Origin: a virus
DNA: 22,388 bases
Direction: 5' to 3' (one strand)
Virus record (IMG/VR): IMGVR_UViG_3300023184_000561
Location: 1-22,388 of that record
The first letter of the stretch is position 1; the number at the start of each line of letters is the position of its first letter. The notes under the pieces were generated by a model that was not told where the DNA came from, did not search any database, and was given only the letters and a program-made list of their open reading frames with translations. Position numbers and translations under genes: made by a program. Below, piece after piece: positions 6,739 to 21,490 of this stretch.

Positions 6739-7374
6739 TCATTTGAAAATATTATTCATTGCCAGAACATTGACTGGTCTTTGTGAAGCTTTCATCAATG
6801 GTGGTCTGTGTGTAATAATCGCAACACAGTCATGCATCATCGCGCCGTGAAATTCTCCGGGTTCCAAAATCCAAACATCACCAGCGATGTATCTTTTCCC
6901 GGTTTTTAGACAAGTCATATAACCCTCTTCAATTCTAACTTCTTCGGAAGTTGATTCATGGCAATGTTCTGGAAAATTTCCAAATCCATTACAAACCAGT
7001 GATAATTTTGTGCTATTTTTTGTATGACTGATGACCGTCATCGATACATTTTCTAAAAAACATAATGCCACATTGGGTATCATTGGAACATGTAGGAAAT
7101 TTCCATCAGGAAATTTTAAATCTAGTGTATAATAATCTTCTGGATTTAGATCTTGGGTCGCTTTTGTTAATTGTTTAGCTATTAATTTTTGGACAGAATT
7201 GGTATTAGCCTCTATTAATTTATCGGTCTGTTGATCCGTTATTTTTTTGAAAATCCAACTACATGCACCAATGGTTGGGACCACTATAGCTGCCACATAT
7301 CCTAATATAACTCCAATATGTTTTAATATCTGTTCTACATTTTCTATAGGAGGTAAAACGGAGAATATGGTCAT
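6739..7374 (-). CDS. Membrane-anchored cupin-domain protein
   Basis: This 211-residue protein is encoded against the structural genes. Residues 19-43 form a hydrophobic segment (IGVILGYVAAIVVPTIGACSW) that should be a membrane anchor. A Lys/Gln-rich helical linker follows. The C-terminal part is a cupin-like beta barrel: motif 1 has H137, H139, E144 and G151 in the standard HxH-x4-E-x6-G spacing, and motif 2 has G165, P172-G173 and H176. A bound metal ion is therefore likely, with H137, H139, E144 and H176 as ligands. The substrate is unknown; cupins include dioxygenases, isomerases and sugar or small-molecule sensors. ATTAAATA precedes the ATG by 5 nt, suggesting expression with the structural genes. 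It may act in the host envelope. Confidence 0.7.
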   Translation of the reverse strand: MTIFSVLPPIENVEQILKHIGVILGYVAAIVVPTIGACSWIFKKITDQQTDKLIEANTNSVQKLIAKQLTKATQDLNPEDYYTLDLKFPDGNFLHVPMIPNVALCFLENVSMTVISHTKNSTKLSLVCNGFGNFPEHCHESTSEEVRIEEGYMTCLKTGKRYIAGDVWILEPGEFHGAMMHDCVAIITHRPPLMKASQRPVNVLAMNNIFK

Positions 7375-7684: not shown

Positions 7685-7690
7685 AACAAT

Positions 7691-7707
7691 TATTTAACAT
7701 CTAAATA
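7691..7707. promoter_or_regulatory. Divergent back-to-back TAAATA elements
   Basis: GTTAAATA on the minus strand (7698-7691) and CTAAATA on the plus strand (7701-7707) abut. They form the inverted repeat TATTTA-N5-TAAATA. The minus copy serves the GTG at 7684 (6 nt) and the plus copy the ATG at 7713 (5 nt). Neither has a TTG -35 box at the usual distance. Confidence 0.5.
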
Positions 7708-7712
7708 TTGAT

Positions 7713-17430: not shown

Positions 17431-18888
17431 ATGAAAACTATTGAAGATCCTAATAAATCGCGCACTGACCAAGCTGTAAAGCGTTGGGAAAAAGTGCTTA
17501 ACTTCGAATCCTCGTCTGTGCCTGCTATCCAAAGCGAGCATGTCAAGAGGGTTACTGCCGTTCTCTTGGAAAACCAAAACAACTGGTGTATCCAAGAATC
17601 CTCAAACAACTCCCAAGGCATCTTCGGTGCTACCTCGGTTGCTAACAGCCCGAATGGTAATACTGATAACTATGCTGCTGGTGATAGTCGTCTCCCTAAA
17701 ATTCTGATCCCAATGATCCGTAGAACATTCCCAGAACTTATCTCACATGAGATCTGCGGTGTTCAACCTATGGGTGGTCCAGTTGGTCTTGCTTTCGCTT
17801 TGCGTTATGCTTATCAATCCGACTTGCTCAACACTGTTGATCGTGTTGGAACTGATGGAACCGCTGGAACTGGTAATGCTGGTGGTATGGGTGGTGGTGC
17901 TTATACTGGTTCTGCTGGTCTAAACGCAACTGAACTTGGTTATCAACTCTTAGACACCCGTTTCACTGGTGTTTCAAGTGGTGCTCTTTCCGGTAACGCT
18001 TCCGAGTGGGCATTTGCTGATCAAGATCGTGGTGTTGCTCAATTGCTTGAGTCCTATGAAGCTACTGGTCGTATTCCACAAATTGAAATGAAGTTTGAAA
18101 AGACTTCAGTTGAAGCTGGAACTCGTAGACTTGCTACCCGCTGGTCAATCGAGCTTGAACAAGACATCAAGAATATGCAAGGTATTGACATTGATGGTGA
18201 ACTCACCAACGCAATGTCCTACGAAATCCAAGCTGAAATCGACCGTGAAGTTCTCATGCGTATGATTCAGTCCGCTTTCAACGCTGGCTACGGTGCTGGT
18301 TTCTCCTTCTGGAGTCCGGTTTCTGCTGATGGTCGTTGGACTGCTGAACGTAATGCTACTTTCTACCAAAAGCTCTTGATTGAGTCTGGTCGTATGGCTG
18401 CTCGTAACCGTAGAGGTGCTGCTAACTTTGTTATCGCCACTCCTCGCGTTTGTTCTATCCTAGAAATGCTTCCTGATTTCAAGACCTTTGAAATCGTCGG
18501 AACTGTCAATACTAACTCTGTTGGTGTTGCTAAGATCGGAACTGTTGGAAGTCGTTGGACTGTCTATCGTGACCTTCGCACTGAAGTTCAAAACCAAACT
18601 CTATATGGTAACAGAGGTTATACTCCTGCCAATACTGCTGGTGTTGAATATGCTCTGCTTGGTTATAAGGGTTCTGAGTATTATGATACTGGGATAATTT
18701 ACTGTCCTTATATTCCGATCATGGTGCAACGTGCCATCGATCCGGTTAACTTCACCCCAAGAGTAGGATTGATGACCCGTTATGGTATCGTTAATAACAT
18801 TTTTGGAGCGAATCTTTACTATCATCTCATCATCGTTAAGGGATTAGGTGTTGCATTTACACCCGGATCAACCAGCGTGTATCTCTAA
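17431..18888 (+). CDS. 23: Major capsid protein (T4 gp23-like)
   Basis: This is the hexameric shell protein of the head. The 485-residue sequence (T4 gp23 is 521) has the hallmark block MIRRTFPELISHEICGVQPM followed by GGPVGLAFALRYAY, matching T4 gp23 after its propeptide. I54-Q55-E56 fits the T4 gp21 cleavage rule and would remove a 56-residue propeptide; L45-L46-E47 is a second option. Codon choice differs from neighbours: C-ending codons (TTC, AAC, ATC) are frequent, consistent with very high expression. The start is preceded by CAAATA 6 nt upstream, one mismatch from TAAATA, plus A-rich sequence. A strong terminator follows. Confidence 0.95.
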   Translation: MKTIEDPNKSRTDQAVKRWEKVLNFESSSVPAIQSEHVKRVTAVLLENQNNWCIQESSNNSQGIFGATSVANSPNGNTDNYAAGDSRLPKILIPMIRRTFPELISHEICGVQPMGGPVGLAFALRYAYQSDLLNTVDRVGTDGTAGTGNAGGMGGGAYTGSAGLNATELGYQLLDTRFTGVSSGALSGNASEWAFADQDRGVAQLLESYEATGRIPQIEMKFEKTSVEAGTRRLATRWSIELEQDIKNMQGIDIDGELTNAMSYEIQAEIDREVLMRMIQSAFNAGYGAGFSFWSPVSADGRWTAERNATFYQKLLIESGRMAARNRRGAANFVIATPRVCSILEMLPDFKTFEIVGTVNTNSVGVAKIGTVGSRWTVYRDLRTEVQNQTLYGNRGYTPANTAGVEYALLGYKGSEYYDTGIIYCPYIPIMVQRAIDPVNFTPRVGLMTRYGIVNNIFGANLYYHLIIVKGLGVAFTPGSTSVYL

Positions 18889-18917: not shown

Positions 18918-18952
18918 AAACCCGAAGGATGTCAAAGTCCTTCGGGTTTTTT
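18918..18952. terminator. Strong intrinsic terminator after the capsid gene
   Basis: AAACCCGAAGGA (18918-18929) pairs perfectly with TCCTTCGGGTTT (18938-18949) around an 8-nt loop, followed by T residues to 18952. On the minus strand the stem is followed by T-rich sequence, so it may also stop transcription from the convergent endonuclease gene. Confidence 0.9.
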
Positions 18953-19704
18953 CATTTGTTGTAATCATCAAATGTTCTATATTCTGAGACATAGTGTATT
19001 ACAGTATTTTTTGGGAATGGGTGTTTACTCAATTTAGTGACCCTCTTAAAAATATATGATCCATTATTTCTAATCCTCCTAAATATAAAATCATCTGTGT
19101 GATATTTTTCCACAAAATTCTTGAGACAATTAGATTCAATGGTTTCGGTCCCATTAGGATAAACCAATCTATATGTAACCTTAGATCTCCCATGATCTTT
19201 TATAAATTTTACCTTTCTCAATTCTTTATCTGTTTTATTGTTTGTCTCTATTCTTTTTCTAATCGTATCTTTTCTTTTGCTTAAAGATTCATACCAATTA
19301 TTATATTTCTCTGGATCTTTATACATATCAAAAAGACCTTCACTCACACTCTTTTTGAATTCTTTATATTTCTCATCTCCAGCATACTCTAAATAATATC
19401 CACCTCTTCCACCCCTATGAATATTGTAACAATTTTTTCCAAATTTTCGAACTAATCTACGAATCAATTTAATTTCAAGTCGGTTTAAATTTTCAGGTGT
19501 TGTAATTTTCAATTTAAAATATCTCACCGTGAAGTTTTCCTTTCCGTATTTCTTAAATGCTTTCTTCAAATGTGTTCCAGATCCTTTATAAACTTTATTA
19601 GAAACTTTGTAATGCTTACCACCATAAACCTTACCGTTAATCATATTAATCGTAACATATAATAAATATTCAGGAACCTTATTATTGTTTTTAATCTTTC
19701 GCAT
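18952..19704 (-). CDS. GIY-YIG homing endonuclease (Seg-like)
   Basis: This is a free-standing homing endonuclease of the T4 Seg type, which cuts related phage DNA so that its own gene is copied in. The GIY-YIG domain is at the N-terminus: YLLYVTINMINGKVYGGKHY (the GIY and YIG elements read LLY and VYG), then GSGTHLKKAFKKYGKENF, typical of Seg proteins. A catalytic-type Glu is likely in LNRLEIKLIRRL. The C-terminal part is basic and probably DNA-binding. The ATG at 19704 (250 residues) is chosen over an upstream start at 19737 because CTAAATA ends 5 nt before it. It lies opposite to the structural genes between the capsid gene and the next late genes. Confidence 0.9.
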   Translation of the reverse strand: MRKIKNNNKVPEYLLYVTINMINGKVYGGKHYKVSNKVYKGSGTHLKKAFKKYGKENFTVRYFKLKITTPENLNRLEIKLIRRLVRKFGKNCYNIHRGGRGGYYLEYAGDEKYKEFKKSVSEGLFDMYKDPEKYNNWYESLSKRKDTIRKRIETNNKTDKELRKVKFIKDHGRSKVTYRLVYPNGTETIESNCLKNFVEKYHTDDFIFRRIRNNGSYIFKRVTKLSKHPFPKNTVIHYVSEYRTFDDYNK

Positions 19705-19709
19705 AAATA

Positions 19710-19737
19710 TATTTAGCATCTGTATTGGATTTGTCAA
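19710..19737 (-). promoter_or_regulatory. TTGACA-N16-TAAATA promoter (homing endonuclease)
   Basis: On the minus strand TTGACA (19737-19732) is followed after 16 nt by TAAATA (19715-19710), which ends 5 nt before the ATG at 19704. This is the best match to a bacterial -35/-10 layout in the window. Confidence 0.6.
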
Positions 19738-19752
19738 TAGTTCTTGACAAAT
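19729..19752. repeat. Inverted repeat between divergent genes
   Basis: ATTTGTCAA (19729-19737) and TTGACAAAT (19744-19752) are perfect reverse complements around a 6-nt centre. Each arm contains a TTGACA pointing outward. It could be an operator for both promoters. Confidence 0.6.
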
Positions 19753-19771
19753 TATTTTTAGATGATACGAT
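19744..19771 (+). promoter_or_regulatory. TTGACA-N16-TACGAT promoter-like element
   Basis: TTGACA (19744-19749) and TACGAT (19766-19771) are 16 nt apart; the second ends 7 nt before the ATG at 19779. The -10 match is weak. Confidence 0.4.
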
Positions 19772-19778
19772 AACTGGT

Positions 19779-20252
19779 ATGGACAACAAACAAGAAATTA
19801 AGGATAAAATTCAAAATCACATCAATACTAATTACGAGGGATCGCTCAGATTTATGAAAGATAAGGTGACTATCAAATTGTTGGGGGGTGAGATTCTTCA
19901 AGAAATCAAAAGTATTACTGATCATAAATTACATAACCCCATGCCATTGCTTTTGTATTGTTTTCTTAATGACATTACTGAACAACCAAAATGTGTTTGT
20001 GGTAATGATACAAAATATGATAAGGTTCGTAAGAGATTTGGGTTCTTTTGCAGCACAAAATGTAGATATGAAAATAATGAAGAAGAAACCGCAAAAAGGG
20101 TAAATACTTGTTTAGAAAAATATGGAACCAAAACCTACATGGTAAGTGAGGAAGGATTAGAAAGAAATAAACAAATTATGATTGAAAAATATGGTGTTGA
20201 TAATTATGGAAAGACCGAAGAATTCAAGGAACTTAGAAAGAACTGGAAATGA
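19779..20252 (+). CDS. Zinc-finger protein, homing-endonuclease-like, probably truncated
   Basis: This 157-residue protein carries a treble-clef-like Cys cluster: C72-x-C74, then C91-x3-C95 (CVCGNDTKYDKVRKRFGFFC, STKC). Two copies of an EKYG motif follow (CLEKYGTK at 111-118 and IEKYGVDN at 136-142). Zinc finger plus EKYGV repeats is an arrangement I associate with phage homing endonucleases and DUF7487-like proteins, in which a nuclease domain usually follows. Here the frame stops soon after the second repeat, so the nuclease part seems lost. The ATG at 19779 is preferred to the TTG at 19725. It is divergent from the GIY-YIG gene and its stop overlaps the next ATG (ATGA). Confidence 0.65.
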   Translation: MDNKQEIKDKIQNHINTNYEGSLRFMKDKVTIKLLGGEILQEIKSITDHKLHNPMPLLLYCFLNDITEQPKCVCGNDTKYDKVRKRFGFFCSTKCRYENNEEETAKRVNTCLEKYGTKTYMVSEEGLERNKQIMIEKYGVDNYGKTEEFKELRKNWK

Positions 20253-20464
20253 TGAAAGAATACGAAATTCAATTTGAAAAAGTCGAGATTAAAGCAACCA
20301 CAAGAAAATTATCAGGAAATTGGACTTGTGAAATCTCTCCATATATTATTTATGGATTTACAAATGAAGATGGTGATTATGAAGAAATAGAAATCCACAA
20401 AGATGAATTGGTGGATAGATCAGAATTTATGATGCTTTATACAAAAGTTGACAAATCCAACTAA
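20249..20464 (+). CDS. Unknown small protein
   Basis: This 71-residue, acidic protein is unrecognised. It has alternating beta-like segments (YEIQFEKVEIKATTRKL, WTCEISPYIIYGF, YEEIEIHKDELV). No signal peptide or motif is seen. Its ATG overlaps the stop of the zinc-finger gene by 4 nt, so translation is probably coupled and the two may have moved together. It ends 17 nt before the next gene, and that gene's -35-like TTGACA lies in its last codons. Confidence 0.6.
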   Translation: MMKEYEIQFEKVEIKATTRKLSGNWTCEISPYIIYGFTNEDGDYEEIEIHKDELVDRSEFMMLYTKVDKSN

Positions 20465-20476
20465 GTTTACTAAATA
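20448..20476 (+). promoter_or_regulatory. TTGACA-N17-TAAATA promoter-like element
   Basis: TTGACA (20448-20453) and TAAATA (20471-20476) are separated by 17 nt. The TAAATA ends 5 nt before the ATG at 20482. Confidence 0.6.
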
Positions 20477-20481
20477 ATAAT

Positions 20482-20856
20482 ATGCCATACACATTCTCAA
20501 ACACTGTCCTATCTGCTGCAAAATCAATGACACCGGGACAGGCAGCATCTCTGTCAGCCAACGGTATCAACATCATCTCACTATCAACTAATGATGTTGG
20601 GTTGTCTTATAATGCTAACACAACCCTTTCTAATGTCCTTTCAACACTCACTGTTGATGGAAGTGTGTTTAGAATTGACACATCATACAGTGGTCAGAAA
20701 TTCTCTCTGAATAAATTACAAATTAATAATCTATCTCAGCATACTGTATTCACGTATCTTTCAAGTCTTGCGACCACTCCAGTATCCGCCTATGACCAAA
20801 CTACCCAAGTCTCCACCCCCAACCATAGACGTTTGAGACTTCTGGGTTATCGCTAA
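20482..20856 (+). CDS. Unknown small Ser/Thr/Asn-rich protein, possible virion component
   Basis: This 124-residue protein is not recognised. It is rich in Ser, Thr, Asn and Leu with few charges except a basic C-terminus (PNHRRLRLLGYR). The pattern of short hydrophobic beta-like stretches (INIISLSTNDVGLSYN, FRIDTSYSGQKFSL) suggests a beta-structured protein. It has no signal peptide or Cys. It forms its own transcription unit: a good TTGACA/TAAATA pair with 5-nt spacing before the start, and a strong terminator 34 nt after the stop. That layout would suit an abundant small structural protein such as a capsid decoration or tail protein, but this is inference. Confidence 0.7.
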   Translation: MPYTFSNTVLSAAKSMTPGQAASLSANGINIISLSTNDVGLSYNANTTLSNVLSTLTVDGSVFRIDTSYSGQKFSLNKLQINNLSQHTVFTYLSSLATTPVSAYDQTTQVSTPNHRRLRLLGYR

Positions 20857-20938: not shown

Positions 20939-21490
20939 ATGGAAGTCTATAAATTTAATAAACTATTTATGATAGTCCTACTATTTGCGACTATTGTATC
21001 TTGTAAAAAGGTTCCAAAACCATCATCGAGTGATTACCAATATGCTGTTCCCAATATGGTAGGACAAAAACAGGAGAAAGATTTATGGTGTGCTGCGGCT
21101 GCTGCCAGAATGTTAATGAGTCAAAAGACCAATTCTTTACCCACACAATGTCAAATAGTATCTAGAGTGACTGGTAAACCTTGCGAAAATCAAAAGATAG
21201 ATGCCAAACTTGCACTAATTATGTATGGTTATTCCGTTGAGGAATTACCTATATCTTTTGATGCAGTGGTGAATTCTATAAACGAGGATAAACCAGTGAT
21301 CATTTATCATTATAATCGCAAAGGCACATTGGATGAATCGGGACATGCTGTGGTGGCATATGGAACATTTAATACTCAAGAACGAAATTATATTCTAGTA
21401 TATGATCCTTTAACTGACAATACGGTGACAATGGATAGTAGTTATGTCACCGGAAATCTAGAGTGGTATCGAGTTTTAAGAATTAACTAA
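20939..21490 (+). CDS. Lipoprotein papain-like cysteine protease
   Basis: This is probably a lipid-anchored cysteine protease of the C39/AvrRpt2 papain-like type. The 183-residue sequence starts with a signal peptide (FNKLFMIVLLFATIVS) and lipobox IVSC, with Cys22 as the lipidated residue followed by KK, as is common in Bacteroidota lipoproteins. The catalytic set fits papain spacing: Q45 six residues before C51 (DLWCAAAAARML), H136 in SGHAVVAYG and D156 in VYDPLT. Cys71 and Cys82 might form a disulfide. The target is unknown. Being exported and membrane-anchored, it could act in superinfection exclusion, lysis or toxin-like modification of the host envelope. It lies between a terminator and the baseplate hub gene, 3 nt from the latter. 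Confidence 0.8.
   Translation: MEVYKFNKLFMIVLLFATIVSCKKVPKPSSSDYQYAVPNMVGQKQEKDLWCAAAAARMLMSQKTNSLPTQCQIVSRVTGKPCENQKIDAKLALIMYGYSVEELPISFDAVVNSINEDKPVIIYHYNRKGTLDESGHAVVAYGTFNTQERNYILVYDPLTDNTVTMDSSYVTGNLEWYRVLRIN

Follow-up and report, generated by a model that had tools for sequence, protein, structure and literature searches.

Published passages on the late promoters of T4-type phages give CTAAATA, the Aeh1 form, as a T4-type late box that starts at -12. For the homing genes of such phages, PMC2988022 terms seg43 of Aeromonas phage 25 segD-like and reports that a segD-specific promoter was searched for and not found. In pelagimyophages, according to PMC7029224, a prediction of late promoters was attempted and failed. 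Here we analyse a window of 22,388 bases, which is the complete virus record IMGVR_UViG_3300023184_000561 and represents a genome fragment. It carries the T4-type genes for portal, gp13, gp14, sheath stabiliser and gp23 and is an uncultivated T4-like virus. Its subject is a perfect inverted repeat between two divergent homing genes in one hotspot behind gp23. As judged from the letters and from homologous loci, this repeat probably consists of the two -35 boxes of the divergent promoters of these genes and is not a dedicated operator. The features concerned are the following.

18952-19704, minus strand: GIY-YIG homing endonuclease gene, 250 amino acids (aa; phrog_314, E 8.8e-20)
19710-19716, minus strand: CTAAATA, T4-late-type -10 box of the GIY-YIG gene, at a positional peak in relatives
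19732-19737, minus strand: TTGACA, -35 box of the GIY-YIG gene
19729-19752, no strand: perfect inverted repeat of 9 base pairs (bp), ATTTGTCAA-TAGTTC-TTGACAAAT, with arms at 19729-19737 and 19744-19752 and a loop of 6 nucleotides (nt)
19744-19749, plus strand: TTGACA, -35 box of the zinc-ribbon gene, read from the sequence and compared with homologues
19766-19771, plus strand: TACGAT, sigma-70-like -10 box, with TG one base upstream, ending 7 nt before the ATG
19779-20252, plus strand: zinc-ribbon homing endonuclease gene, N-terminal 157-aa form (DUF7487 stretch; phrog_3339 positions 17-190 of 536; PF24308)

The original prediction had described a perfect 9-bp inverted repeat that places TTGACA in both directions, and the arms are indeed exact reverse complements; their ungapped extension gives 24 nt at 71%. 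On the minus strand TTGACA (19737-19732) is followed after 16 nt by TAAATA (19715-19710) and after a further 5 nt by the ATG of the GIY-YIG gene at 19704, and on the plus strand TTGACA (19744-19749) is followed after 16 nt by TACGAT (19766-19771) and after 7 nt by the ATG of the zinc-ribbon gene at 19779; TAAATA and TACGAT are the boxes that had been named for the two sides. The proposed role of the two TTGACA boxes as promoter elements agrees with the related group, whose promoter pattern is matched by their spacing to the -10 box and to the ATG.

This pattern emerges from the window and 80 relatives, IMG/VR loci found via gp23 (73-79% identity), when the offsets of both boxes are counted from each ATG of the open frames, in loci that are partly redundant. 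TAAATA lies exactly 5 nt before the ATG in 379 cases, at 6 and 7 nt in 60 and 52, and otherwise in about 5 to 10; TTGACA ends 27, 28 and 29 nt before the ATG in 19, 39 and 23 cases. Conversely, when the YTAAATA sites of the two strands are taken together (882), 306 are followed by an ATG after 5 nt, a figure that falls to 1.1% of 892 sites for the control YTAATAA. Removal of near-identical upstream regions leaves 229 promoters, 158 of them with TAAATA at 5 nt, in which -35 boxes with at least 5/6 matches occur 33 times at spacings of 15-18 nt against 19 times in total over the ten spacings 20-29. The TAAATA and TTGACA arrangement is, on this positional evidence, the predicted promoter of the related group. 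The TAAATA box stands at homologous starts of the 124-aa gene that closes the hotspot (30/30 non-redundant homologues), of gp21 (26/28), gene 8899 (14/14) and gp13 (11/12), and is found at 0/20 starts of gp23 and 3/28 of gp14; in the window, gp14 begins in overlap with the preceding gene. Since gp23 and gp14 are without the box, it would be a promoter of first genes and not a general translation signal; a purely translational role is unlikely in view of these two genes and of TTGACA at promoter spacing. Shine-Dalgarno-like 4-mers occur at 3/219 homologous starts. A second divergent promoter is seen at 7685-7712 of the window, where two TAAATA boxes face apart within 28 bp between gene 7394 (minus strand) and gp13 (plus strand); in non-redundant homologues the boxes are present in 7/8 cases for gene 7394 and 11/12 for gp13.

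The homologues of the two homing genes provide 24 non-redundant upstream regions, 11 with TAAATA and 13 without, the latter unscored. A -35 box of at least 5/6 accompanies 8/11 of these TAAATA promoters compared with 25/219 of the others (Fisher 1e-5), a set from which further homing-gene families were not screened out. With the window excluded the box is found at 7/10 of the homologous homing genes with TAAATA (5e-5); 194 of the 219 other promoters have none. TTGACA is also present in three homing upstreams that lack TAAATA, those of L011, L066 and the zinc-ribbon gene of the window. These counts suggest that homing genes often have a host-like -35 box in addition to the late-type -10 box, and such genes would show how a parasitic gene can bring its own promoter into a capsid operon.

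We propose that two homing genes, each with one promoter, have entered a single hotspot behind gp23. The GIY-YIG promoter, TTGACA-16-(C)TAAATA-5-ATG, would join a T4-late-type box to a -35 box, and the zinc-ribbon promoter, TTGACA-16-TACGAT-7-ATG, would be sigma-70-like. Because both promoters lie so close to the ATG, both messenger RNAs (mRNAs) are predicted to begin on the start codon or no more than 1-2 nt away from it. The host polymerase would read the -35/-10 pair early and the gp55-polymerase would read TAAATA late; the messages would be leaderless, and the symmetry of the repeat would be a by-product. Directly visible in the DNA of the window and its relatives are the boxes with their spacing, the positional peaks across the group, the hotspot, the enrichment of -35 boxes at homing genes and a gp55-type gene in the long relatives. 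The hotspot is made up of the following further features.

17431-18888, plus strand: gene of the major capsid protein gp23, which borders the hotspot on the left (PF07068, E 1.2e-83)
18918-18949, plus strand: intrinsic terminator behind gp23, from the terminator scan; a similar hairpin lies in the empty sites of relatives
20249-20464, plus strand: open reading frame (ORF) of 71 aa that overlaps the zinc-ribbon gene at its end, with no homologue in the fetched loci
20448-20476, plus strand: promoter of the 124-aa gene, TTGACAAATCCAA...CTAAATA, which has its first 13 nt in common with the GIY-YIG promoter
20482-20856, plus strand: conserved phage gene of 124 aa that closes the hotspot, with TAAATA 5-7 nt before the ATG

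Both gp23 and the downstream 124-aa gene are present in 68 of the 80 relatives. The gap between them is short (108-197 bp) in 24 and holds other inserts in 16, a GIY-YIG homologue in 12 (all on the minus strand) and a zinc-ribbon homologue in 16 (15 on the plus strand, 1 on the minus strand). Empty (24) and GIY-filled (12) sites are thus found within the same 68 relatives, as is characteristic of a mobile homing gene. The short gap of L078 (9243-9405) retains a zinc-ribbon-type promoter and start codon with no gene behind them, and is likely the deletion scar of a lost homing gene. A search of IMG/VR for relatives of the 124-aa gene gave none; local tblastn found the gene in the capsid loci. 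The 71-aa ORF shows a weak match to a stretch of gp23 (E 0.013), which is below the cut-off. Elsewhere in the window, a C39-type peptidase with a lipoprotein-like signal is encoded at 20939-21490, with the 124-aa gene on one side and a baseplate gene on the other, and has no homologue among the 80 capsid loci, and the minus-strand gene at 6739-7374 that adjoins the portal gene gives a weak cupin match and has no homologue in the fetched loci.

As to the proteins themselves, the earlier gene labels broadly hold. The minus-strand product is a homologue of GIY-YIG-type homing enzymes and shows a GIY-YIG-like motif and candidate catalytic residues (R and E in GIY-YIG enzymes), with Y16, Y27, G29, R61, E77 and N94 invariant in 7 homologues; it has no Pfam GIY-YIG match at E 0.1 and no relative among solved structures. 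The label of the plus-strand gene stands for a zinc-ribbon homing homologue limited to its first 157 residues. Full-length homologues in the same place have 516-531 aa and match phrog_3339 up to 535 of 536, and the window ORF, ending at 157 aa, is without the nuclease part, which follows residue ~220 in phrog_3339. A second short form, of 158 aa, is found in L011 (12835-13311) behind a full-length copy; its C-terminal end is similar and it is 50% identical to the window form. With two cases only, the short form may represent an independent gene; a wider search for such forms returned the L011 contig again and two partial relatives.

A nuclease-less protein of this kind is of interest for the claim, made in the original prediction, that one protein co-regulates both genes through a palindromic operator. 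In its most explicit version, drawn by analogy with I-TevI, the GIY-YIG or the nuclease-less zinc-ribbon protein would cover both -35 boxes and repress one or both genes, and the similar end of the second short form in L011 is compatible with such a function. In the published passages on I-TevI its operator resembles the homing site (15/20 nt) and overlaps its own late promoter, and in the window 13 nt of TTGACAAATCCAA are common to the GIY-YIG promoter and to that of the 124-aa gene at the far edge of the hotspot; at least 13 nt are shared in only 17/26,106 promoter pairs. This common stretch may have arisen by copying of a promoter or may be a homing-site look-alike as in the I-TevI operator, and the sequences fit either origin; the within-locus promoter pairs of L048, L012, L022 and L077 have only the promoter box in common. 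Furthermore, those passages do not speak of the I-TevI operator as palindromic, the palindrome is not found at GIY-YIG homologues, which have other upstream regions, or at zinc-ribbon homologues, and the divergent pair occurs in 0/68 relatives with the whole gap from gp23 to the 124-aa gene. The claim of co-regulation is therefore left unsupported, a palindromic operator conserved together with the genes was rejected as the lead reading, and we regard the I-TevI-like version for both boxes as unlikely. One of the homing genes may nevertheless be repressed by the protein that it encodes, as I-TevI is, and the nuclease-less zinc-ribbon protein may bind here.

The symmetry might also be fortuitous beyond the two TTGACA boxes, with one of the two promoters unused. 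Such repeats are not rare in the window, where 22 perfect 9-bp seeds fall at about 11 places (3.9 seeds expected) and terminator hairpins account for two of the other places; the zinc-ribbon gene, moreover, is a fragment with a poor -10 box. For the 74-nt intergenic stretch, however, only 0.9% of 20,000 dinucleotide shuffles contain a perfect 9-bp repeat whose loop is at most 20, so that the repeat is locally unusual although not unique, and the proper spacing of both boxes together with the -35 enrichment at homologous homing genes makes an explanation by chance very improbable in our opinion. Least probable of all is that the repeat works as an RNA hairpin, such as a weak terminator protecting both genes against read-through. 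The 9-bp stem does fold on both strands (-10.5 and -8.6 kcal/mol, z -2.6 and -4.2) and is followed on the plus strand by a T-rich tract, but it contains only 2 G-C pairs, so that the terminator scan, which requires 3, made no call; neither mRNA would contain the stem if it starts at its ATG, and a strong terminator is already present behind gp23. A terminator reading of the repeat was rejected for its too few G-C pairs.

The reading of the repeat as two divergent -35 boxes can be compared with the same palindrome in unrelated viruses. In IMG/VR, 19 stretches contain the identical 24-mer pattern against 6 for one control palindrome, a difference that with a single control is weak evidence either way, and none of the 19 has the GIY-YIG/zinc-ribbon homing pair at the palindrome. 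After removal by eye of 5 homologous duplicates (L116, L117, L124, L130, L133), 14 families remain, in which a -10 box of at least 4/6 lies at 16-18 nt from 13/28 arms as opposed to 2 and 3/28 at control spacings. There, too, divergent -35 boxes in a pair usually make up the palindrome, as far as the motifs indicate, which also speaks against a palindromic operator. Near-consensus TATAAT is seen on one side of the palindrome in some of the IMG/VR loci L115-L133.

The identity of the late box has consequences for the whole lineage. CTAAATA at 19710-19716 on the minus strand is one of the two forms of the T4-type late -10 box (TATAAATA or CTAAATA), and a late box that begins at -12 places the A of the ATG at +1, so that the mRNAs would be leaderless. 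The gp55-type late sigma family phrog_234 is encoded in 10/12 long relatives, the window itself being a fragment. Late mRNAs of the lineage thus look leaderless from the position of their boxes. In HTVC008M (L143), a cultured pelagiphage, TAAATA lies 4-7 nt before 9/58 annotated starts, and leaderless late mRNAs may extend to this phage; Syn1 shows no TAAATA peak at 5 nt. A promoter at the start codon might explain why the late-promoter prediction in pelagimyophages failed. We tentatively extend these observations to a broader proposal, of which we are considerably less sure than of the two -35 boxes: the gp55-type late promoters would have moved onto the start codon across the lineage, leaving the first genes of late operons mostly leaderless, and homing genes would invade with composite promoters (host -35 and late TAAATA) read both early and late, the palindrome being two such promoters that abut. 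If true, a T4-type late programme would bypass Shine-Dalgarno leaders. No description of leaderless T4-type late mRNAs was found in the literature searched, which lay mostly outside subscription journals. In practical terms, YTAAATA, 5 nt and ATG provide a simple rule for late genes and for the correction of start codons across a large group of uncultivated T4-like viruses, and the rule is probably usable in pelagiphages also. Named phages closest in gp23 are less than 60% identical, and the cyanophages that head the list stand at ~33%. The capsid protein gave only two matches against genome records, at 48-49% identity and filed as Lachnospiraceae and Paludibacteraceae, from which we make no host assignment.

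Several points weigh against the interpretation of the repeat as the -35 boxes of two promoters. The zinc-ribbon promoter of the window is without TAAATA, unlike that of most full-length homologues, and TAAATA directly before the ATG could in principle serve translation. The transcript starts are predicted from sequence. The gp33-type coactivator family PF16805 was found in 0/12, by a search that also returned 0 in controls. Finally, the agreement of the arms over 9 bp rather than 6 bp is unexplained by -35 boxes alone; the extra AAT on each side of the TTGACA halves may be due to chance.

Compared with the known systems, the GIY-YIG promoter resembles the gp55-dependent late promoters of T4-type phages in the CTAAATA form of Aeh1 and in the gp55 homologue of the long relatives, and differs from those of T4 in the place of the box. 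TAAATA lies mostly 23-28 nt before the annotated T4 starts (at 20-32 nt in 10/42 and at 4-7 nt in 0/42, in a list that excludes repEA, repEB, the internal starts of genes 17 and 21 and the cut gene uvsY), whereas here it lies at 5 nt with the ATG at +1. T4 late promoters are not known to have a -35 box; the GIY-YIG promoter, in contrast, has TTGACA 16 nt upstream of TAAATA, which is why we call it late-like and not a plain late promoter. Like I-TevI as portrayed in the passages cited above, the GIY-YIG gene has a late promoter that resembles a site elsewhere in the phage, in this case 13 nt of a neighbouring promoter; in contrast to that system, the element here is a palindrome and would be no more than a putative binding site. 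The nearest counterpart in position is T4 segD, a GIY-YIG gene likewise directly behind gene 23 (between 23 and 24), antisense to its neighbours and with terminators around it; the GIY-YIG gene of the window differs from it in having a TTGACA/TAAATA promoter of its own and in standing back to back with another homing gene.
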